In this document: one piece after another, positions 27,137 through 38,975 of the stretch | How the letters are laid out: each line of letters starts with the position of its first letter | Numbering within the stretch: position 1 is the stretch's first letter | Assembly: GCA_002909145.1 (NCBI GenBank) | Contig: PNQY01000076.1 | Span: 1-38,977 of the forward strand | DNA from: Candidatus Thioglobus perditus | Lineage (GTDB): Bacteria > Pseudomonadota > Gammaproteobacteria > PS1 > Pseudothioglobaceae | Reading direction: 5' to 3' | DNA: 38,977 nt | Made by a program: the position numbers and the translations under genes | The notes under the pieces: model-generated | What the model was told of the DNA's origin: nothing | Seen by the model: only the letters and a program-made list of their open reading frames with translations | Databases searched by the model: none

Positions 27137-28552
27137 TTAGAGCCAATCAGTGTGGTATGTTTGACCTCTAGGTTTATCGACACGTTCATATTTGTGAGCA
27201 CCGAAATAGTCTCTCTGTGCTTGCAATAAGTTTGCTGGCAAGGATGGGTTACGGTAACCATCAAAGTAACACAAAGATGACGTCATTGCCGGTATAGGTA
27301 CTCCATGCTTTATTGCTAAAGAGCAAGTTCTGCGCCAGCCTTTTTGACAGTTATTTATCTTGTCCCTAAAGAATGGATCTAGTAACAAATTTTTTATATC
27401 TTTGTTGTTGTCATAAGCATCTTTAATTTTATTTAAAAATACCGAACGTATAATACAACCTCCACGCCAAATAAGTGCAATACCACCATAATTAAGGTTC
27501 CACTGATACTCTTTAGCTGCCTCAGAAAGAAGATTGTATCCTTGAGCATATGAAACCATTTTTGCTCCATAAAGTGCGTCATGTATATCTTTAAGAGCTT
27601 TCTCTTTATTTCCATCAAAAAAATTATCTGGTCCACTAAATATTTTTGACGCTTCCACCCTTTCATCTTTGAGGGAGGATAAGTAACGATAGAAAACCGA
27701 CTCTCCAATCAATGTAAGTGGTGCTCCAAGATTGAGAGCTGCAATTCCAGTCCACTTACCAGTGCCTTTTTGCCCAGCAACATCCAATATTTTATCTAGA
27801 ATGGGCTCGCCATCAACATCTTTGAAGGCCAAAATATTAGCTGTAATTTCAATCAGATAGCTACCTAGTTCACCTTCATTCCATTTCTTGAATGTTTTGT
27901 GCATCTCTTCATTAGACATACTTAAAACATCTCTCATTATTTGATAAGATTCACAAATTAGCTGCATATCTCCATACTCAATACCATTATGCACCATCTT
28001 GACAAAGTGGCCTGATCCGCCTTCACCTATCCAATCACAACAAGGCTGCCCATCCACCTTAGCAGAAATCAATTGCAGAATATCTTTTACCGAATCCCAT
28101 GCAGATACAGAGCCTCCTGGCATAATGGCCGGACCCTTTAATGCACCTTCCTCACCTCCAGATACTCCAGCACCAATGAAGTAGTACCCTTTTGACTCTA
28201 ATTCATTAGTTCTTCTTGTTGTGTCATGGTAATTGGAGTTGCCACCATCAATAATAATGTCACCTTTTTCAAGATATGGCAACAACTTATCAATAAAGCT
28301 GTCAACAACTACCCCTGCTTTAACCATCATCATTATCTTTCTTGGTTTTTCAATAGCCATAACAAAGTCATGAATATTGGCACAACCTATAAAGTTTCTG
28401 CCCTTGGCTGTGATATTAACAAAATTATCTACAGACTCTGGAGTGCGATTATGGACCGCCAATGTGAGGTTATGGCTTTCCATATTTAACGCTAAATTTT
28501 GCCCCATTACCCCTAATCCAATTAGGCCGATGTCAGCCTTTGTCTTATTCAT
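27137..28552 (-). CDS. gnd: 6-phosphogluconate dehydrogenase, decarboxylating
   Basis: Oxidatively decarboxylates 6-phosphogluconate to ribulose-5-phosphate with NADP+. 471 residues (E. coli Gnd 468), full length. N-terminal Rossmann motif GLIGLGVMGQNLALN, the NRT NADP-specificity segment, the IIDGGNS region, the catalytic GVSGGEEGA and the Lys in GHFVKMVHNGIEYGDMQ are all present. The start at 28552 is preferred over 28564 because a run of six G lies four bases upstream. Last gene of the island operon, 51 bases after glk, convergent with tRNA-Pro. Confidence 0.96.
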   Translation of the reverse strand: MNKTKADIGLIGLGVMGQNLALNMESHNLTLAVHNRTPESVDNFVNITAKGRNFIGCANIHDFVMAIEKPRKIMMMVKAGVVVDSFIDKLLPYLEKGDIIIDGGNSNYHDTTRRTNELESKGYYFIGAGVSGGEEGALKGPAIMPGGSVSAWDSVKDILQLISAKVDGQPCCDWIGEGGSGHFVKMVHNGIEYGDMQLICESYQIMRDVLSMSNEEMHKTFKKWNEGELGSYLIEITANILAFKDVDGEPILDKILDVAGQKGTGKWTGIAALNLGAPLTLIGESVFYRYLSSLKDERVEASKIFSGPDNFFDGNKEKALKDIHDALYGAKMVSYAQGYNLLSEAAKEYQWNLNYGGIALIWRGGCIIRSVFLNKIKDAYDNNKDIKNLLLDPFFRDKINNCQKGWRRTCSLAIKHGVPIPAMTSSLCYFDGYRNPSLPANLLQAQRDYFGAHKYERVDKPRGQTYHTDWL

Positions 28553-28603
28553 TTTGCCCCCCATAAAGATATAAATATATAAAATTAATTAGTTTAATTA
28601 AAT

Positions 28604-29566
28604 TCAATTTTTGTTGTTTATTAGTATTTGTGACGCCCCTAGAAGACCCATGTATCTAGCTTCTGAAAAATATACAGGTATGCTTTCCATATATCCTCTA
28701 AACCTGCCCTTATCATTGAAGCTTTTCAAAAAATCACTCTTAACAAATAACTCAAAAAAGTTTCTTATAACTCCTCCGGTAATATACACCCCACCAAGTG
28801 CTCCAATATTTAGAGCCGCACTACCAGCAACAGAGCCAAATATTTGACAAAAAAGTTGTAATGTTTCGTAGCATAGCTGGTCTGGATTAGGTTTGTTTGC
28901 TGCACTAGTTATCTGTGCTGGGGTAGTAAATTTAACTTTTTTCTGGTTAATTATTGCCAGTGCTCGATAAAGATTTACAATACCAGGGCCAGACAAAATA
29001 CGCTCCACTGAGACGTGCCCAAATTGTTTTTGCAGTATCTTCATAACTCTAAACTGAAGCTCTGAGTTGGGAGCAAAGTCAACATGCCCACCCTCTCCCA
29101 TTGCTGGAATCCACTCATTCGATGCAGGAATTAATCCACAAACTCCTAGCCCAGTACCTGAGCCAATTGCCAATCTGGCCCTGTCCTTTTGTATTATCCC
29201 TGGATTGATAACTACTACGTCTTTTCTAGATAATATTGTTGTAGCTATAGCCTGAGCAGTAAAATCATTGACCCATATAACATCAATATTATTTAGCGCC
29301 AACATAACATCTTCCTTGTTTACTTGCCAATCATTGTTAACTAGCTTGAATGTTTCTGTGTGTACAGCTCCAGCGATAGCAAAACAAGCTGAATTTATTT
29401 CTACCTGAGGAAGTTCAGTTAAATAAAAATTAATTGCACTCTGCAAATTTTTATATTCGGAGCATGCTAGATAGCGAATATTTTCTAACTCTACACTACC
29501 ATCCTTAACAACGGCAAGCCTGGTGTTTGTTGCCCCTATATCACCTATTAAATTATATTTACTCAT
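28604..29566 (-). CDS. glk: Glucokinase
   Basis: Phosphorylates glucose to glucose-6-phosphate with ATP. 320 residues (E. coli 321). It opens with the phosphate-binding GDIGATNTRLAVV. The catalytic Asp is in VNDFTAQA, and GSGTGLGVC and the GEGGHVDFAP segment follow, typical of the proteobacterial Glk family rather than ROK kinases. It lies 20 bases after pgl. It acts first on imported glucose, as the ABC importer does not phosphorylate its substrate. Confidence 0.95.
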   Translation of the reverse strand: MSKYNLIGDIGATNTRLAVVKDGSVELENIRYLACSEYKNLQSAINFYLTELPQVEINSACFAIAGAVHTETFKLVNNDWQVNKEDVMLALNNIDVIWVNDFTAQAIATTILSRKDVVVINPGIIQKDRARLAIGSGTGLGVCGLIPASNEWIPAMGEGGHVDFAPNSELQFRVMKILQKQFGHVSVERILSGPGIVNLYRALAIINQKKVKFTTPAQITSAANKPNPDQLCYETLQLFCQIFGSVAGSAALNIGALGGVYITGGVIRNFFELFVKSDFLKSFNDKGRFRGYMESIPVYFSEARYMGLLGASQILINNKN

Positions 29567-29586
29567 TTACTATCCATTTAATTTAG

Positions 29587-30306
29587 CTATGGACTCCAAT
29601 ATATACTCAATCCGTGCTCTAAAAAAGCATAAATTGGCATTATATTTGGGTCTTTATTTTTTATAGCCTTTTCGAGAGTTTTTAGTTTGTGCTCACCAAC
29701 TATATAAAGAACTATATTTCTTGATTTACATATCATGGATCTTGTTAAGCTGATACGTTCATATGGTGCTGTGTTTGGATTTACAGCAATGCATTTATTT
29801 TTGTTGTTGATGTCCATAGCCAAGGGCAACTCCTCACTACAAGGAAAGAGTGAAGCTGTGTGTCCATCACAACCCATGCCAAGTATGGATAGATCTATCG
29901 GGCCTTTTAATTTATCAAGAGATTTTTCAGATAAAGCCTGTCCGTCTTTAGCGCTATTTGAGTTGTTCTTGAGCGGGATAAAGTTTGCATTAACGACGTT
30001 ATTTTGTAACAAATTATTTCTTACCAGTAACTCATTGCTGTCTTTGTGAGTCGAATCCACCCAGCGATCATCTATTAGAGTTATATCTGTCAATTCCCAT
30101 TGAACATCTAGCTTGGATAATTTCTGGAAAAGATTTATTGGTGTTGATCCTCCTGAAACTGCCAGACTAACATAGTTATTATTGGCACTCAGGTCTGTGA
30201 ACATTTGTTTTATATCTTGAGTTAAATGTATTGCCAGCTCCTCTTCTGTGCTAGCACTATTCCATTTAACTTTACTTGGTAAGTACTCCGGTCTATCTAT
30301 CTTCAT
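29587..30306 (-). CDS. pgl: 6-phosphogluconolactonase (DevB type)
   Basis: Hydrolyses 6-phosphogluconolactone to 6-phosphogluconate. About 239 residues, the normal size. It shows the family SLAVSGGSTP phosphate-binding segment, LIDDRWVDSTHKDSNE and LGMGCDGHTASLFP. The start codon is uncertain: 30306 overlaps the zwf stop by 14 bases, and ATG at 30321 and TTG at 30330 are in frame. The overlap points to coupled translation with zwf, whose product it consumes. Confidence 0.93.
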   Translation of the reverse strand: MKIDRPEYLPSKVKWNSASTEEELAIHLTQDIKQMFTDLSANNNYVSLAVSGGSTPINLFQKLSKLDVQWELTDITLIDDRWVDSTHKDSNELLVRNNLLQNNVVNANFIPLKNNSNSAKDGQALSEKSLDKLKGPIDLSILGMGCDGHTASLFPCSEELPLAMDINNKNKCIAVNPNTAPYERISLTRSMICKSRNIVLYIVGEHKLKTLEKAIKNKDPNIMPIYAFLEHGLSIYWSP

Positions 30307-31777
30307 ACCATTTATGCCCATACTTTTCAATCATCTGTTTAGCCTCATCCGGACCATTTGATCCTGCGCCATATTTACATAACTTTTGTGATGAGCTCTT
30401 GAATGCTTTGGTAACTTGGTCGCACCATTTCCAGGACAACTCCACCTCTTTTCTGGTTAGGAACATTCTTTGCTCTGAGTTTAATAATTCTAGCAGCATT
30501 TTTTCATAACCATCTGGCATTCTTGAAACCTCCTGAGATTTAAAAAAGTCAAGATGCAGCGGGTCTTTCCTGAGTCTCATTCCTTTATCAACTCCATTGT
30601 CCTTTGTTACCACTTCTAGTGATATACCTTCTGTTGGCTGTAGCCTTATTATTAAGACATTACCGGCAAGCTGTTTCTGGTCTTGGTCGAAAATAAAATG
30701 CTGGTCAGACTTAAAGTGGATAATTATTTGGGTAGCCTTTTCCGCTAACCTTTTTCCTGTACGCAAATAAAACGGGGTTCCAGACCATCTCCAGTTAGAA
30801 ATTTCTGCACGCATACAGATGTATGTTTCAGTTTCACTTTCAGTATTTGCGCCATCCTCTTCTAGATAGCCAGGTACTGACTCACCTAAAACTTTACCAT
30901 CAACATATTGGGCTCTAATAATATCATCTTTAATTGGAGATAAGGCCTTTAGTACCCGCTCTTTTTCATGTCTCATATTTAAAGCATTCAGTTCATTAGG
31001 TGGCTCCATAGCAACAAGACAGAGCAGCTGTAATAAGTGACTTTGCACCATATCTATCATCTGACCTACGTCATCATAATAACCCCATCTACCCTCAATA
31101 CCTATAGTCTCTGCAGCAGTTATTTCTACATATTCGATACATTTAGAGTTCCACTGACTAGCAAAAATTGAATTAGCAAAGCGTAGCGCTATAAGGTTCT
31201 GCACAGTCTCTTTGCCTAAATAGTGATCTATTCTATATATCTGCTCCTCATCGAAATATTTAGCAAGCTTATCGTTCACATTTTTTGCTGATTTATAGTC
31301 AATCCCTATAGGTTTTTCAATGACAATTTTAGATTCTTTATTAATAATTCCATTGTCATTTAAATTATCACAAACCAACTCAATCATGCTTGGCGGTAAT
31401 GCGAAATAATAACTGGTGGCACTACCATTTTTGGGTAGAGATTGTTTTAATTTTTTATAGCCACTAGGATCCTTTAAATCTAGACCGATACAATTAATTC
31501 TACTAACAAACCTAAACTTATTAAAAATGTCACCACTATAGCAATCCTCCTTGACATGGTTTTGTATAGATTCTTTTAGCTTTTCATAAAATTTATTGGT
31601 CTCATTATCATCACGTATAACGCAATGTATAGACAAAGATTTGTCCAAAAATCCTGCCCTCTCTAAATGATAAAAAGAAGGTAAAAGTTTACGCAACGAT
31701 AAGTCCCCTAAACTTCCAAACAACACAAGATCTTGGCTTGTGTGTTTAATGCTGTTATTGTGTTTTATACTGCTCAT
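30293..31777 (-). CDS. zwf: Glucose-6-phosphate 1-dehydrogenase
   Basis: Oxidises glucose-6-phosphate to 6-phosphogluconolactone. 494 residues (E. coli 491). The nucleotide-binding start reads FGSLGDLSLRKLLPSFYHL, close to the usual GASGDLA fingerprint with Ser in place of Ala. IEKPIG and the active-site signature RIDHYLGKETVQNL follow near residues 195-208. First of the enzyme genes, 65 bases after the ATPase gene. No Shine-Dalgarno is visible before the ATG. Two direct copies of TTGATAT lie at 31787-31793 and 31801-31807, just upstream. Confidence 0.96.
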   Translation of the reverse strand: MSSIKHNNSIKHTSQDLVLFGSLGDLSLRKLLPSFYHLERAGFLDKSLSIHCVIRDDNETNKFYEKLKESIQNHVKEDCYSGDIFNKFRFVSRINCIGLDLKDPSGYKKLKQSLPKNGSATSYYFALPPSMIELVCDNLNDNGIINKESKIVIEKPIGIDYKSAKNVNDKLAKYFDEEQIYRIDHYLGKETVQNLIALRFANSIFASQWNSKCIEYVEITAAETIGIEGRWGYYDDVGQMIDMVQSHLLQLLCLVAMEPPNELNALNMRHEKERVLKALSPIKDDIIRAQYVDGKVLGESVPGYLEEDGANTESETETYICMRAEISNWRWSGTPFYLRTGKRLAEKATQIIIHFKSDQHFIFDQDQKQLAGNVLIIRLQPTEGISLEVVTKDNGVDKGMRLRKDPLHLDFFKSQEVSRMPDGYEKMLLELLNSEQRMFLTRKEVELSWKWCDQVTKAFKSSSQKLCKYGAGSNGPDEAKQMIEKYGHKWYEDR

Positions 31778-31842: not shown

Positions 31843-32937
31843 TTATCGAACCCTTTGCCCTGTTAAGGGGTCGAAAACTATCGCCTTACTTGTATCAACC
31901 TGCAACTTAAAACCTTTATCTGCAATCTCACCGGACTCTGGACTAAGCCTTGCCTGCACTTCAGTGTCGTTCCATTTTCCTATCGCTATAGTGTCTCCTC
32001 CCATAGGCTCTATAACCTCTACATCGAAAATAACTTCATGAATATATGGGTTATTTTCATGTGGCTTTAGATCAGTAAGCATTTCCGGTCTTATACCAAG
32101 CAGTACGCTGTCTAGTCCAGATCTATTGATTGCATCTGAGCAAGGGACTGACAACTGATAGTTTTGTGAACCACTATGAATAACTAGTTTGTCTTCAAAA
32201 ACAATACACTCAACAAAGTTCATACCCGGTGAGCCCATAAAGTCTGCAACGAAGTGGTTTGCGGGATCGTTATAAATTTCATAAGGCGTTCCTAGCTGCT
32301 GTATTATTCCGTCCTTTAAAACAGCAATCCTATTTGCCAATGTCATAGCCTCTACCTGGTCATGTGTCACATAAACTATAGTTGTTCCTAATCTTTGATG
32401 AAGTTTCTTAATTTCGGTTCTCATTTCAACCCTTAACTTTGCATCCAGGTTAGACAATGGCTCATCAAACAGGAAAGCCTTTGGTGATCTTGCTAAAGCC
32501 CTACCCATAGCAACTCTTTGCCTTTGTCCGCCAGAAAGTTGTCCTGGTTTACGATCCAACAGATGGTCTATTTGTAACAACTCTGCCACCTTGTTTACTG
32601 TCTCATCTTGTTCATCCTTTGGCACCTTGCGCATCTCCAAGCCAAAACTTATATTGCGAGCCACATTCATTGTAGGATAGAGTGCATATGACTGGAACAC
32701 CATAGCTATGTCTCTATCCTTAGGCGACTTATCGGAAACGTCACTACCAGCAACAACTATCTGGCCACTAGTTATATCTTCTAGTCCTGCTATCAAATTC
32801 ATAAGGGTAGATTTACCACACCCAGATGGTCCGATTAGAATTAACAATTCCCCATCCTGAATATCTAGATCTATATCTTTTAAGACCTCGGTTGAACCAA
32901 AAGATTTGCAAACATTTTTGAGTTGTATGTGTCCCAT
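31843..32937 (-). CDS. gtsD: Sugar ABC transporter ATP-binding protein (GtsD/MalK type)
   Basis: ATPase of the glucose importer, 364 residues, on the inner face of the membrane. Walker [11 protein letters not shown]-loop, signature LSGGQRQR, Walker [13 protein letters not shown] and the switch His in THD are all present. The C-terminal MalK-like regulatory domain (about 240-364) includes GIRPEML. The start at 32937 is preferred to 32949 since GGAA precedes it. It follows the second permease by 45 bases. The symbol is assigned by analogy with Pseudomonas. Confidence 0.93.
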
Positions 32938-32982
32938 ATTGCTTTCCATTTTAATAATTTATTTAATATTTAATAAGGTGGC

Positions 32983-33852
32983 CTATCCTTTAACAGCGCC
33001 TGCAGTCAAACCACGAACAAAGTACTTTCCTGCAAAAACATATACTATTAGCGTAGGCAAGGCCGCAATAATTGCTGCGGCCATATCTACGTTATATTCT
33101 TTACCGCCTATCGAGGTGTTTACTAAGTTATTTAATGCTACTGTTATGGGCTGAGTTCCGGAGCCAGAATAGACAACACCAAATAAAAAGTCATTCCATA
33201 TCTGAGTAAATTGCCAAATCAAAGTTACCACTATTATTGGAGTTGATAATGGTAGAAATATATGCCTGAAAATATCTATAAACCCGGCACCATCTAGCCT
33301 TGCTGCACGAACTAGCTCTGTCGGAATACCTACATAGTAGTTACGAAAAAACAAGGTAGTAAATGCTACACCATATATTACGTGTACCAAAACTAAACCT
33401 GAAACGGTATTGGATAGGCCTAACTTAGATAAAAGTATTGCCATAGGTAGAAGTATCACTTGAAAGGGAATAAAACAACCAAAAAGAAGTGCACCAAAGA
33501 GTAACTCGCTACCTTTGAATTTCCATTTAGATAAAACGTAACCGTTAAATGCACCAACAATTGTCGATATTATTACCGCTGGAAAAACTATCTTTACGCT
33601 GTTCCAAAAAAATGGAGCTAGACCATTACATTCACTGCCAGTACATGCTGAGGACCAAGCCTTTCCCCATGCATACAATGTTGGGTCATTTGGTAACGCT
33701 AGTAAATTTCCACTACGAATCTCTTCAATATCTTTTAGTGATGTAGAGAACATGACATATAGTGGTGCCAAGTAAATAATAGCAAAAGATATAAGTACCA
33801 GATAAATTAATGTGCGACCTAAATTTATATGGAAAATCTTGTTAATATTCAT
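32983..33852 (-). CDS. gtsC: Glucose ABC transporter permease (GtsC type)
   Basis: MalG-like inner-membrane permease, 289 residues with about six helices. The EAA-type loop that docks to the ATPase reads VRAARLDGAGFIDIFRHIFLPL near residue 195. It opens with a short cytoplasmic tail before helix 1. The start ATG overlaps the previous stop as ATGA, so the two permeases are coupled. Confidence 0.92.
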   Translation of the reverse strand: MNINKIFHINLGRTLIYLVLISFAIIYLAPLYVMFSTSLKDIEEIRSGNLLALPNDPTLYAWGKAWSSACTGSECNGLAPFFWNSVKIVFPAVIISTIVGAFNGYVLSKWKFKGSELLFGALLFGCFIPFQVILLPMAILLSKLGLSNTVSGLVLVHVIYGVAFTTLFFRNYYVGIPTELVRAARLDGAGFIDIFRHIFLPLSTPIIVVTLIWQFTQIWNDFLFGVVYSGSGTQPITVALNNLVNTSIGGKEYNVDMAAAIIAALPTLIVYVFAGKYFVRGLTAGAVKG

Positions 33853-34721
33853 GCTGGTCTCTCCCGTAATTCAGAATATAAATAAGGTATAAGAACTGCC
33901 AAGACCCCAAATAGCATAATAATGGCACTGGCAGCACCCAGGCCCATTTGCGCTCTATTAAACGCAAAAGTGTACATAAAGTTAGCTGGCAAATCTGAGG
34001 CGTAACCAGGGCCTCCTCCTGTCAATGCTTGCACTAGGTCGAAACTCTTAATCGCTATATGTGTAAGAATCACTATTGCACTAAAAAATACTGGTCTCAT
34101 TATCGGTAAGATAACGTACCAGTATGACTTGGCGGTTGATGCGCCATCAATTTTGGCCGCCTTAACTAAATTGTCATCCACCCCACGAAGACCAGCCAAA
34201 AACATTGCCATAACAAAACCACTAGACTGCCATACAGCAGCTATAACAATGGTATAGATCGCCATATCCTGTTCTACAAGCCATCTAAACTCAAAATTTG
34301 CAAAACCCATATCGCGAAATATTTTTTCTATACCTAGACCGGGGTTAAGTATCCACTTCCATGCTGTACCTGTGACAATAAATGAGATCGCCATCGGATA
34401 TAAATAAACAGTTCTTATTGCCCCTTCTGCTCGAATCTTTTGATCAAGAAATATTGCCAATAACAAGCCAATAATTAGCGATATCACAATAAACAAAACT
34501 ATAAATATTAATAAATTATCAAGTGCTACATGCCATCTAGGATTTTGAAATAAACGGATATACTGCTCTAGACCAACGAACTCCCACTGAGGCATCATAC
34601 GACTTTTTGTTAGCGATAGAAGCCCTGTCCACAGAATAAATCCATACATACAAACTATCATTGCCAGTGTAGTTGGAGCAATAATGATTTTTGGAAGATT
34701 TCTTTCTAGAAAATTAAACAC
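33849..34721 (-). CDS. gtsB: Glucose ABC transporter permease (GtsB type)
   Basis: MalF-like inner-membrane permease, 290 residues with about six helices. The EAA loop is KAAKIDGASTAKSYWYVILP near residue 185. The start codon is GTG at 34719-34721, with GGGGA seven bases upstream. It follows the binding-protein gene after 217 bases that contain a strong hairpin. Confidence 0.92.
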   Translation of the reverse strand: MFNFLERNLPKIIIAPTTLAMIVCMYGFILWTGLLSLTKSRMMPQWEFVGLEQYIRLFQNPRWHVALDNLLIFIVLFIVISLIIGLLLAIFLDQKIRAEGAIRTVYLYPMAISFIVTGTAWKWILNPGLGIEKIFRDMGFANFEFRWLVEQDMAIYTIVIAAVWQSSGFVMAMFLAGLRGVDDNLVKAAKIDGASTAKSYWYVILPIMRPVFFSAIVILTHIAIKSFDLVQALTGGGPGYASDLPANFMYTFAFNRAQMGLGAASAIIMLFGVLAVLIPYLYSELRERPA

Positions 34722-34938: not shown

Positions 34939-36192
34939 CTACTTGGCTGCCTTAACAGCGCTAACCAACTGACTTGCACCTTCTGCTGCACTCTGGTCAG
35001 AGTTAAAGAAGTTTGTAGCAACATCATATATAGCTCCTGAAACTGCAGATGAAACCGCCATTCCGTGAGCAAAACTTGGAACTAATCCGCCAGTCTGAGA
35101 GCTAGCTATAAAAGCGTCCATAGAGTCATGTGCACAAGAATCAAACTTATCTCTTGACATGCCTAAACGTGCAGGGATTGAACCCTTGTTAAGATTAAAC
35201 ACCTCTTGAAAATCAGACCCAAGGATTTCTTTAGCCATAACTTTTTGAGCTTGCTGATTGCCTAAGTCGGATTGACTAAAGAAAGCAAAAGAGTCTACAT
35301 TAAATGTAAAGCTACCAGAAGTATCTGGTGCAGCTGTACATGTGTAGTCTGTACCTACACTCTTACCTGCAACCTTGAACTCGCCCTTAGCCCAGTCACC
35401 CATAATCTGCATAGCGGCCTCTCCATTAATTACCATAGAGGTAGCTACATTCCAATCACGTCCAGGTGAGTTAGAGTCAATAAACTGACGTAACTTTCCG
35501 AAAGTCTCAAATACTGCAGTTGTGGTATCACTATTAAGTGCATCCATATCTGTTTCCACGAAAGCTTTCTGATAGTATTCTGGACCGCCAATACCAAGAA
35601 CAACAGCTTCAAAAACTGTAGCATCTTGCCAATCCTGTCCACCATGAGCTAGCGCAATGTATCCAGCATCTTGGATCTTTTTGGCTTGAACCATAAAGTC
35701 GTCCCAAGTAGTTGGAATTGTTGCTCCTGACTTACGAAATACCTCTGGATTAGACCATAACCAGTTAACACGGTGTACATTTACAGGTGCTGCAACATAA
35801 TTACCATTATGCTTCATCACATCTGAAACAACACTAGGCAATAGACCGTCCCAATTGTTATCTTTTGCAACTCCATTAATGTCTGCTAAAAATCCAAGAT
35901 CTCCCCACTCCTGAATAGACGGGCCCTTTATTTGAGCTGCAGTAGGTGGGTTACCAGAAATAGCGCGAGACTTAAGTACCGTCATAGCATTCTCACCTCC
36001 ACCACCAGCAACAGCAAAATCACTCCAACTAACGCCTGCACCATCTAATTTATCTTTTAAGTAATTAACACTAGCTGCCTCACCTCCACTAGTCCACCAG
36101 TGAAGAACTTCAACTTCTCCTGCACTGAATGCTGTAGAGCTTGCCATAAAGGCAGCTGCAGCCAGTGAAGTCATTTTCATATTTTGTTTCAT
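34939..36192 (-). CDS. gtsA: Periplasmic glucose-binding protein (GtsA type)
   Basis: 417-residue solute-binding protein. The first 24 residues are a Sec signal peptide; there is no lipobox. The mature start GEVEVLHWWTSGGEA, the AVAGGGGENAMTVLKSR segment, the YVAAPVNVHRVNW region and FNLNKGSIPAR closely resemble my recollection of Pseudomonas glucose-binding protein GtsA, which makes glucose (or mannose) the likely ligand. AGGGGA precedes the ATG. First gene of the transport operon; two adjacent 10-bp direct repeats lie upstream. Confidence 0.93.
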   Translation of the reverse strand: MKQNMKMTSLAAAAFMASSTAFSAGEVEVLHWWTSGGEAASVNYLKDKLDGAGVSWSDFAVAGGGGENAMTVLKSRAISGNPPTAAQIKGPSIQEWGDLGFLADINGVAKDNNWDGLLPSVVSDVMKHNGNYVAAPVNVHRVNWLWSNPEVFRKSGATIPTTWDDFMVQAKKIQDAGYIALAHGGQDWQDATVFEAVVLGIGGPEYYQKAFVETDMDALNSDTTTAVFETFGKLRQFIDSNSPGRDWNVATSMVINGEAAMQIMGDWAKGEFKVAGKSVGTDYTCTAAPDTSGSFTFNVDSFAFFSQSDLGNQQAQKVMAKEILGSDFQEVFNLNKGSIPARLGMSRDKFDSCAHDSMDAFIASSQTGGLVPSFAHGMAVSSAVSGAIYDVATNFFNSDQSAAEGASQLVSAVKAAK

Positions 36193-36280
36193 TGTTTATC
36201 CCCTATTAGTTAATTGCACTCATGATTGAGAGCAATGTATTCATAGTAGAATAAGAAAAAGATCGAAAGATTTTGTTTTA

Positions 36281-36300
36281 TTACAAATTGTTACAAATTA
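36281..36300. promoter_or_regulatory. Tandem 10-bp direct repeats, candidate response-regulator site
   Basis: TTACAAATT occurs at 36281-36289 and again at 36291-36299, exactly one helical turn apart (reading AATTTGTAA on the minus strand). OmpR/PhoB-type regulators bind such repeats in tandem. The site lies about 90 bases upstream of gtsA, roughly 40-60 bases from a plausible start near 36241, and the neighbouring operon encodes an OmpR-type regulator. Confidence 0.55.
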
Positions 36301-36309
36301 GTGCAAAGC

Positions 36310-37752
36310 TTACGACGGAAAGTAAACCTCAACTGTAAGCCCGCCACCTTTGCGGTCCTTAAGCTCTATCTCTCCGCCATGAATATTTACAATATTACGA
36401 GCTATACTCAAACCTAAACCAGAATGGTTCTTACTTATATTGTGCTCTATACGATAGTAAGGCTCAAATACATTAATTTTTTCCGCATCACTAAGTCCTG
36501 GGCCTCGGTCCATAATCTTTATGAGTATTTCCCCTTCTAGCCTTTCTCCGCTAATCTCCACCCCTTTTCCATAGGTTAGTGCGTTATTAATTAAGTTACA
36601 GAACAACCTCTCTATTGCCAAAGGTCTGCCCTTTATTGTAAGTTTGTCCTGTATATCTAGAATAACAGGTAGACCAGAAATCTTCTCTTTACTAGTAAGC
36701 ACATTAAGCATATCACCTAAATCTATTGACTTAGAGTTCTCATAAATAGTGCCATCAGTCATAACTTGAAGGCTTCCCTTAACCATGGTATCTAAATAAT
36801 CAAGATCCCTTATAAGGTTGTCTTTCATTTCTCCGTCCTCTAAATTTTCTACCCTTAAACGGGCTCTTGTTATTGGAGTCTTTAAGTCATGAGATATGGA
36901 AGCATATGATTGCTCCCTTTCGGAGATAAACTTTTGAATACGCCTGGCCATAGCATTAAAAGCTTTTATTGTAGTTTTCATTTCTTTGGAGCCATGTTCG
37001 GGTAACTGCCTTAGCTTGCGCCCCTTACCTAACAGGTCTGCCTGATTGGCCAATAATTTAAATGGCATTATAATCCATCGAACAAAAATAAGAGTTACAA
37101 GCAAAACTATAATCGAAACCACAGTCAAACTAATTATTCGTTCAGTAGTGAGCCACTCAATTCCCAGCATTACCTCGCCCTTAGGGATAACCGCTGCAAG
37201 ATACATCCACTCTTTCCCTATAGGGAGCTGAACTACAGCTATTGGACTTGAATCGCCAGGCTCTAATAGCGCAAACCTTTTCCATTTAGGCGGTAAATCG
37301 ACCATTAAATTATCACCAGATAATATTTTTAAGTTATCAAAGTCAACAAACTGAATCTGCATCCCAGGAATAACTCCAGTTTGTGCGAACATACTCTCTT
37401 TTATCTTTTTACGGACCAGCAAAGAGAACTCTGTTTCAACTATCTCATCTAAATTTATGTATTTATCATTAATAGAAACAAAAAAACGTGTGCCACCCAT
37501 ATCGCGCAACTGGTCAAGCACTATGTGTCTATATTGGTCGGGTAATTTTCCAAAGAACTCAACAGTTTGGCCGATACGTGAACCCATAGATTGTGAAACA
37601 TCTACCAATCGATTCCTTTCTGATGACTTTAATTGCTCAATCCAGAGTAAAGTGCCTAATAATTGTGCAACCAGTATGCCGGTAAATAGTGCAGATGCCA
37701 TTCTTGCAGCTATAGTTTTTGGTAGCATCCAATCAATTATTAGGTTTTTCAT
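36310..37752 (-). CDS. Sensor histidine kinase (GtrS/EnvZ type)
   Basis: 480-residue membrane kinase. TM1 spans about residues 18-38, a periplasmic sensor domain about 39-205, TM2 about 206-226 and a HAMP linker follows. The phosphoacceptor is His288 in SISHDLKTPITRAR. ATPase motifs are NLINNALTYG (N box), DRGPGLSD (G1) and SGLGLSIA (G2). The start at 37752 is chosen over an in-frame GTG two codons earlier; neither has a strong ribosome site. It is paired with the response regulator upstream. By analogy to Pseudomonas GtrS it senses glucose or a glucose-derived metabolite; that is inference. Confidence 0.92.
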   Translation of the reverse strand: MKNLIIDWMLPKTIAARMASALFTGILVAQLLGTLLWIEQLKSSERNRLVDVSQSMGSRIGQTVEFFGKLPDQYRHIVLDQLRDMGGTRFFVSINDKYINLDEIVETEFSLLVRKKIKESMFAQTGVIPGMQIQFVDFDNLKILSGDNLMVDLPPKWKRFALLEPGDSSPIAVVQLPIGKEWMYLAAVIPKGEVMLGIEWLTTERIISLTVVSIIVLLVTLIFVRWIIMPFKLLANQADLLGKGRKLRQLPEHGSKEMKTTIKAFNAMARRIQKFISEREQSYASISHDLKTPITRARLRVENLEDGEMKDNLIRDLDYLDTMVKGSLQVMTDGTIYENSKSIDLGDMLNVLTSKEKISGLPVILDIQDKLTIKGRPLAIERLFCNLINNALTYGKGVEISGERLEGEILIKIMDRGPGLSDAEKINVFEPYYRIEHNISKNHSGLGLSIARNIVNIHGGEIELKDRKGGGLTVEVYFPS

Positions 37753-37864
37753 GCTCACTTATCTTTTAATATATTAATAAATGACTCTGGTTTTAGTTTA
37801 ATTAACTTAGTACTACATTCAATATAGTCAAACATATTTTGTTATATGCCACTAATACCATTAA

Positions 37865-38524
37865 TTATTTAGAAAGTAAGACGTAACCCTTGCCACGTAC
37901 ACTTTGGATAATCTCACCTTCAAAATGGGAACTAAGCTTGTGACGTAAACGACTCACAGTCGTGTCTATAGATCTGTCATCTGGAAGTGTTCTTCTGCCA
38001 CGAAAAGACTCCCCTATCTGATCCCTACTTTGCACTATACCAATATTCTTTTTTAGGACACACAATAAATCAAACTCTGCCCCGGTTAATCCTATTACAA
38101 CACCATCAACAGAAGCTTCTCTGGCAACGTGATTTATATTGATATGACAATTACTATCATTGTCTACTTTAGTTCTCCTTAATAAAGCCTTAATTCTAGC
38201 CAAAAGCTCTCTAGGATTGAACGGCTTACTAACGTAATCGTCAGCACCAAGCTCAAGACCTAATATTCTATCAAGGTCATCGCTAGCCGCCGTAAGCATA
38301 ATTATTGGAATTGTAGAGTCTTGTCGCAATATACGACATAATTCTAGACCATCTATACCTGGCAATCCAATGTCTAGAACTAACGAACTAAATTGACTAC
38401 TATCTTGATTCAAAAATGACTCAGCATCGGAATATGGATAAACCTCGAAACCATTATTTGTAAGATACTGACTAAGTAACTCAAGTATCTCATCGTCATC
38501 ATCAATAATTGCTATTTTTTCCAT
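37865..38524 (-). CDS. OmpR-family response regulator (GltR type)
   Basis: 219 residues. The receiver domain (1-115) has the acidic pocket DDD at 8-10, phosphoacceptor Asp51 in LVLDIGLPG, Thr78 and Lys100 (SKPF). The C-terminal winged helix (about 125-218) contains LTGAEFDLLCVL and RSIDTTVSRLRHKL, then VRGKGY. First gene of the island, 112 bases before the kinase and read in the same direction as the transport and enzyme genes. It most likely activates gtsA and perhaps its own gene. Confidence 0.93.
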   Translation of the reverse strand: MEKIAIIDDDDEILELLSQYLTNNGFEVYPYSDAESFLNQDSSQFSSLVLDIGLPGIDGLELCRILRQDSTIPIIMLTAASDDLDRILGLELGADDYVSKPFNPRELLARIKALLRRTKVDNDSNCHININHVAREASVDGVVIGLTGAEFDLLCVLKKNIGIVQSRDQIGESFRGRRTLPDDRSIDTTVSRLRHKLSSHFEGEIIQSVRGKGYVLLSK

Positions 38525-38645
38525 CTATGAATATATAACCAAAGTATTAGTAATATACCACATTATTTTACTAAACATTAAAACCCGGATTTTATGACTC
38601 TTTCAATAGTAACAAATTTGCTAGCATATTAAAACCAAAATCATC

Positions 38646-38808: not shown

Positions 38809-38885
38809 GCGCCCTTAGCTCAGCTGGATAGAGCAACGGCCTTCTAAGCCGTAGGTCACACGTTCGAATCGTGTAGGGCGTGCCA
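38809..38885 (+). tRNA. tRNA-Arg (anticodon TCT)
   Basis: 77-nt cloverleaf with encoded CCA. The acceptor GCGCCCT pairs with AGGGCGT (first pair G-U), the anticodon loop contains TTCTAA with TCT, and the T loop is TTCGAAT. It resembles E. coli tRNA-Arg(UCU). It begins 30 bases after the tRNA-Pro fragment. Confidence 0.96.
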
Positions 38886-38898
38886 CAAAAGTTTTTAT

Positions 38899-38975
38899 GG
38901 CGGGAATAGCTCAGTTGGTAGAGCCCCGGATTGTGATTCCGGTTGTCGCGGGTTCGAACCCCGTTTCTCGCCCCA
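38899..38975 (+). tRNA. tRNA-His (anticodon GTG)
   Basis: Cloverleaf with the extra G(-1) at 38899 pairing with C73, acceptor GCGGGAA with TTCTCGC, anticodon GTG, T loop TTCGAAC and encoded CCA. It follows tRNA-Arg by 13 bases, so the two are surely co-transcribed. The window ends two bases later. Confidence 0.96.

Follow-up and report, generated by a model that had tools for sequence, protein, structure and literature searches.

A predicted GltR-like operator upstream of the glucose importer gene gtsA in Candidatus Thioglobus perditus and its relatives

The glucose block and its two-component system

The window, a 38,977-base stretch of Candidatus Thioglobus perditus DNA that was analysed at its full length, carries on its minus strand a block of genes in the order regulator, kinase, binding protein, two permeases, ATPase, zwf, pgl, glk and gnd. 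The regulator gene (37865..38524) encodes a protein with Response_reg and Trans_reg_C domains that is 43% identical to Pseudomonas aeruginosa GltR, in agreement with an initial annotation that had placed an OmpR/PhoB-type regulator upstream of gtsA; it is the likely binder of the operator described below. The sensor histidine kinase (36310..37758) is of the GtrS type, aligning with GtrS at 37% identity over 452 columns that take in the sensor region. It is the best GtrS relative in its own genome (322 versus 118 bits) and, judged by its sequence, is a full-length one. The first gene after the operator, gtsA (34939..36192), encodes a periplasmic glucose-binding protein that is 58% identical to P. 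aeruginosa GltB and whose best solved relative is the sugar-binding protein 5dvf (E 6.7e-141). As in the GtrS-GltR system, the two-component genes thus stand together with the gene of a GltB/GtsA-type glucose-binding protein. The genes gtsB and gtsC and that of the importer ATPase (31843..34721) match the NCBIfam sugar ABC permease and UgpC-type ATPase models, and zwf, pgl, glk (TIGR00749) and gnd (27137..31777), all above their NCBIfam cut-offs, are putatively co-transcribed. At the outer edge of the block lie tRNA-Arg (tct) and tRNA-His (gtg), at 38809-38885 and 38900-38975, a possible insertion point for an island.

A tandem repeat and the promoter of gtsA

Between the kinase gene and gtsA, TTACAAATT occurs twice on the plus strand, at 36281-36289 and 36291-36299. 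These are its only exact matches in the 38,977 bases. The claim of tandem copies starting exactly 10 bases apart was borne out. No other exact 9-mer in the window recurs with a period of 10. When one mismatch was allowed, the window held 40 matches, which is not above the chance mean of 36.1. Read on the gtsA strand, the repeat is TTTGTAAC-AA-TTTGTAAT; it begins 105 bases upstream of the gtsA ATG (36192), which puts it about 100 bases before the start codon, and lies some 10 bases from the stop codon of the kinase gene. When the whole window was shuffled 200 times, 24.5% of the shuffles held at least one exact period-10 9-mer; when the 117-bp region between kinase gene and gtsA was shuffled, only 13 of 20,000 did. 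What excludes chance for this repeat is therefore its place and its conservation, not its mere existence in 39 kb.

To describe the promoter we aligned 14 upstream regions without gaps from the first half-site: those of the 13 close gtsA orthologues of the family and that of G142, a genome of another family whose row was aligned by eye and then checked. The first half-site, GTAAC within TTTGTAAC (36290..36294, minus strand, offset 0), keeps its G and its Y in 14/14 promoters and its A in 13/14. In the second, GTAAT within TTTGTAAT (36280..36284, minus strand, offset 10), G, A and Y are each kept in all 14. Two further putative half-sites follow on the same strand, AAAAT at 36270..36274 (offset 20; A in 11/14, C in 12/14) and GATCT at 36260..36264 (offset 30; G in 13/14), so that the two copies first noticed stand but the number of half-sites had to be raised to an apparent four. 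Both additional half-sites are weak in the window, which counts against the operator reading preferred below, and the information content at offset 20 (0.63) is no better than that of its spacer (0.64).

The predicted -10 element of the gtsA promoter is TACTAT (36243..36248, minus strand). A TANNNT word stands exactly at +46 from the first half-site in 14/14 promoters; elsewhere in the range of offsets 20 to 54 the count is three at most, these other offsets being the only control for the 14-row test; in a test on 12 promoters, the largest count reached in 2000 shuffles was 5. A search of 36150-36400 found neither a -35 element nor a promoter of the sigma-70 type, which agrees with the initial view that the gtsA promoter lacks a good -35. 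Direct repeats one helical turn apart (offsets 0 and 10), a -10 at +46 and no -35 together have the form of an OmpR/PhoB-type tandem operator, and the missing -35 with the fixed +46 spacing, one of the 14 cases coming from another family, argues that it is the operator of an activator. We infer a transcript start near 36236, which would place the strong half-sites at about -61 to -44 and let the weak pair span the place of the absent -35. The CRP consensus is a palindrome, and a CRP site at gtsA was rejected because the operator is not a palindrome of that kind.

Conservation of the operator

In 18 of the 83 genomes surveyed in the family, the binding protein has a match within an E-value limit of 1e-60; 13 of these matches are close gtsA orthologues, 78 to 100% identical. 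Conservation of the repeat upstream of gtsA orthologues was a check set beforehand, and a leave-one-out motif match was found within 160 bp upstream of gtsA in 13/13. The best match was equalled by none of 1000 shuffles in 11 genomes, by 1/1000 in G075 and by 16/1000 in G072. The 12 training sites had been chosen by eye before the leave-one-out test. The tandem is visible by eye in 12 of the 13 upstream regions, while in G077, which lay outside the training set, it was located by the motif itself. Half-sites and -10 are preserved among eight representatives below 80% identity.

In only four genomes (G000, G015, G005 and G077) is gtsA the gene immediately after that of the kinase. The operator is also present where the two-component genes do not adjoin gtsA; it thus stays with gtsA when the neighbourhood changes, and its presence upstream of all 13 orthologues, with the pair immediately upstream in only four genomes, argues for a GltR-like operator. 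A GTNAY pair at 10 or 11 bp was present in 10/14 promoters with the system (0.29 expected) versus 0/11 upstream of gtsA-like genes whose adjoining 1.5 kb held no kinase match (0.18 expected), which points the same way. The four promoters with the system that failed this strict test are those of G077, G072, G078 and G142. In the G444 family, 27 of 56 promoters examined carry a GGTAAYC anchor and 29 do not; 13 of the 27 anchored promoters also carry the complete set of three additional half-sites, at -42, -31 and -20, an array that was described from the same sequences in which it was counted. G142 (L057, L189) encodes a gtsA product 78-79% identical to that of the window, a kinase 50% and a regulator 53% identical, a similarity that suggests movement of the glucose block between lineages.

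Comparison with GtrS-GltR and other OmpR-type systems

Published accounts of P. aeruginosa GltR disagree in both consensus word and mode of action. According to PMC7927077, GltR has the consensus GTNACAAA, derived from 16 ChIP-seq peaks, glucose activates gltB through GtrS-GltR, phosphorylated GltR binds more strongly, and the gltB footprint consists of two protected stretches, from -44 to -13 and from -11 to +15. PMC4081096 describes GltR as a repressor that is released from DNA on phosphorylation, with the consensus tgGTTTTTc; at gltB, a sequence difference in the strain of that study is noted in PMC7927077. On the plus strand, GTTACAAA in the second copy of the window repeat fits GTNACAAA; on the gtsA strand the fit is GTAACAAA, in G015 and others. 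Together with the activation of gltB by GltR, the GTTACAAA match argues for a GltR-like activator operator. The window operator contains no word like the tgGTTTTTc of PMC4081096 and bears no resemblance to it; this consensus and the repressor model that goes with it count against that reading.

The P. aeruginosa gltB promoter, which we took from a plasmid record carrying edd-glk-gltR-gtrS-gltB, has half-sites GTAAC, GTGAC and GTTAC at 0, 11 and 32. By the coordinates given in PMC7927077, the first protected stretch spans GTAAC and GTGAC and the second spans GTTAC, so the footprint covers half-sites like those of the window, a further point for GltR-type binding at gtsA. Photobacterium GJ3 has GTTAC at exactly 0, 11 and 32, and TAGACT stands at +58 in both promoters. 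For these two promoters, a half-site triple at 0/11/32 arose in 1 and 0 of 20,000 shuffles. A -10 at TAGACT would place the P. aeruginosa operator upstream of the core promoter, contradicting the published gltB start, which would put the operator over it. Within its 9-kb stretch, Photobacterium GJ3 has the regulator and no kinase match; in Photobacterium DA100 almost no DNA separates the kinase gene from the gene beside it, and GTNACAAA is absent. The plasmid, pHOU1-1 (L145, NZ_CP042268.1 96907-106025), carries edd, glk, gltR, gtrS, gltB, the rest of the importer and oprB, a block whose edd, glk, gltR, gtrS and gltB genes are chromosomal in the literature.

The window shares with P. aeruginosa the order regulator, kinase, binding protein, permeases and ATPase, as well as direct-order GTNAC half-sites that precede the start codon by roughly 100 to 120 bases. 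It differs in half-site spacing (10, compared with 11 and 21), in the position of the -10 (+46 in the family of the window and in G142, compared with +58 for TAGACT in Pseudomonas and Photobacterium) and in what follows the ATPase gene, which is zwf, with no oprB. Operators of PhoB and OmpR are direct repeats about one turn apart that lie beside the -35 or replace it. The window likewise has direct repeats about one turn apart at the -35 place, whereas its half-site word and predicted signal are unlike those of PhoB and OmpR (compare PMC4117788). A search of open-access literature, with few subscription journals in its reach, turned up no account in which the GltR operator is a tandem array.

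Which regulator binds, and how

The alternative that survives best, though an unlikely one, holds that the operator is real but is bound by another OmpR-type regulator, for example that of an OmpR/EnvZ-like pair on contig C68 with a similar half-site. Against GltR, the C68 paralogue from the same genome scores 169.5 bits, slightly above the 157.2 bits of the window regulator, and in a tree of 22 regulators it falls closer to GltR; this counts against the window regulator being the GltR counterpart. The tree had been reduced from 25 rows by removing own_C8, a misleading long branch, and a few others, and on its 22 rows a single clade of all gts-linked regulators was neither shown nor rejected (p-AU 0.064). 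Half-sites within the subfamily are also alike. The RstA box TACATNTNGTTACA, as given in PMC4117788, has TACA words 10 bases apart, each tandem word taking one DNA-binding domain, and by reading it differs from the window operator at one specified position. The window regulator, however, scores 134 bits with the RstA model, below its cut-off of 330, and the window target is a glucose importer. The operator occurs where a GtrS-type kinase and regulator are encoded: of the 13 genomes that have a close gtsA, all but G061 gave a match to the kinase (12/13). The natural candidate binder is the regulator beside gtsA.

Repression is improbable. Here the regulator would cover the promoter and depart when phosphorylated, as proposed for P. 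aeruginosa GltR in PMC4081096, where footprints, transcription and EMSA on other GltR promoters are reported. Against this, gltB is activated and phosphorylated GltR binds better in PMC7927077, and at gtsA, whose promoter has no -35, the strong half-sites stand farther upstream than the -35 place, as expected of an activated promoter. That a chance word in AT-rich DNA was kept by common descent alone is very improbable: such repeats are frequent in whole-window shuffles and the intergenic region is largely common to close relatives, but half-sites and -10 persist among the eight divergent representatives and the layout recurs in another family and, spaced otherwise, in Pseudomonas and Photobacterium.

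Autoregulation and wider regulon

A related word upstream of the regulator gene had been taken as a hint of autoregulation. The word, AACAAATTTG, is present some 87 bases ahead of the start codon of the regulator gene (ATG at 38524), but at 38611-38620, one base away from the 38612-38621 first given. It contains a single TTTGTTAC, and the best tandem-motif score in the 200 bp upstream of the regulator was 4.1 versus 23.3 at gtsA, so we rejected autoregulation in the window. The TTTGTTAC upstream of the regulator is common to the window and G005 and absent in G015, which has TATGTCAG at the matching place. Among 10 regulator upstream regions scored, one has a strong tandem: in G077 (L046), TTTGACATACTTTGACAC lies about 95 bases upstream of the regulator gene with a score of 16.1, and by this sequence the regulator may control its own gene there. 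Regulator upstream regions in genus g3 (L047, L027, L029 and others) have in common a stretch like TTGCATAAATATTTTCATTGTTTATAAT that has, by eye, the form of a plain -35/-10 promoter and contains no GltR-type box.

The 18-base operator pattern has two exact matches in the 1.59 Mb of its own genome, the second inside an open frame. Matches with up to two mismatches numbered 94 and 93, compared with 106 and 92 for a reversed control; as this is no more than the control, no wider regulon is visible in the genome and we rejected one. Matches with at most one mismatch lie at 13 other places, five of which were read in context: three are internal to open frames (L114, L124 and L125), L116 runs across a frame end, and L119, with no long frame, resembles a CRP/FNR-type palindrome by eye. 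Three genomes with the regulator pair and no close gtsA (G012, G065 and G079; L087, L086 and L085) carry a similar box, AATTTGTAATACTTTGT[AT]AC, flanked by the gene of a binding protein of 47% identity and by a divergent gene, which the box faces; in G012 this divergent gene is Gig2-like (PF07350).

Proposed mechanism and implications

We consider it probable, at roughly four in five, that the repeat is the core of the operator by which a glucose-responsive two-component system activates gtsA. The computation established that the repeat exists and is conserved, that it keeps a constant distance from a -10 in a promoter with no -35, and that the kinase and the binding protein are related to their P. 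aeruginosa counterparts. By sequence comparison, these most likely mark a conserved GltR-like activator operator of the glucose importer, with binding and activation as predictions. The regulator encoded in the window would be the protein that binds the operator, it would act as the activator of gtsA, and glucose would be the signal of the two-component system. In the proposed sequence of events, periplasmic glucose, probably in the form of glucose-loaded GtsA, would switch on the GtrS-type kinase, which would phosphorylate the OmpR/PhoB-type regulator encoded beside it. Regulator dimers would then bind head to tail on GTNAY half-sites spaced by one helical turn, of which the two strong ones would occupy about -61 to -44 and the two weak ones the place of the absent -35, and the bound regulator would recruit RNA polymerase to gtsA and the genes that follow.

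We further propose, tentatively, that a GltR-type operator is in general not a single word of the published kind but a phased array, with three to five G-Y-N-A-Y half-sites at intervals of 10-11 bases, which lineages shift by about one helical turn relative to the -10, keeping the face of the helix and not the distance. The lineage of the window may use a non-orthologous regulator, swapped in under a conserved kinase and operator.

The comparison resolved the operator layout more finely than the published accounts of GltR that were consulted. It would also add to the reach of two-component control over the gts importer a lineage that is known here from genome sequences alone, several of the related records being metagenome-assembled. 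For GltR itself, on which the literature conflicts both in the consensus word and in the mode, activator or repressor, it would provide a sharper and testable definition of the operator.
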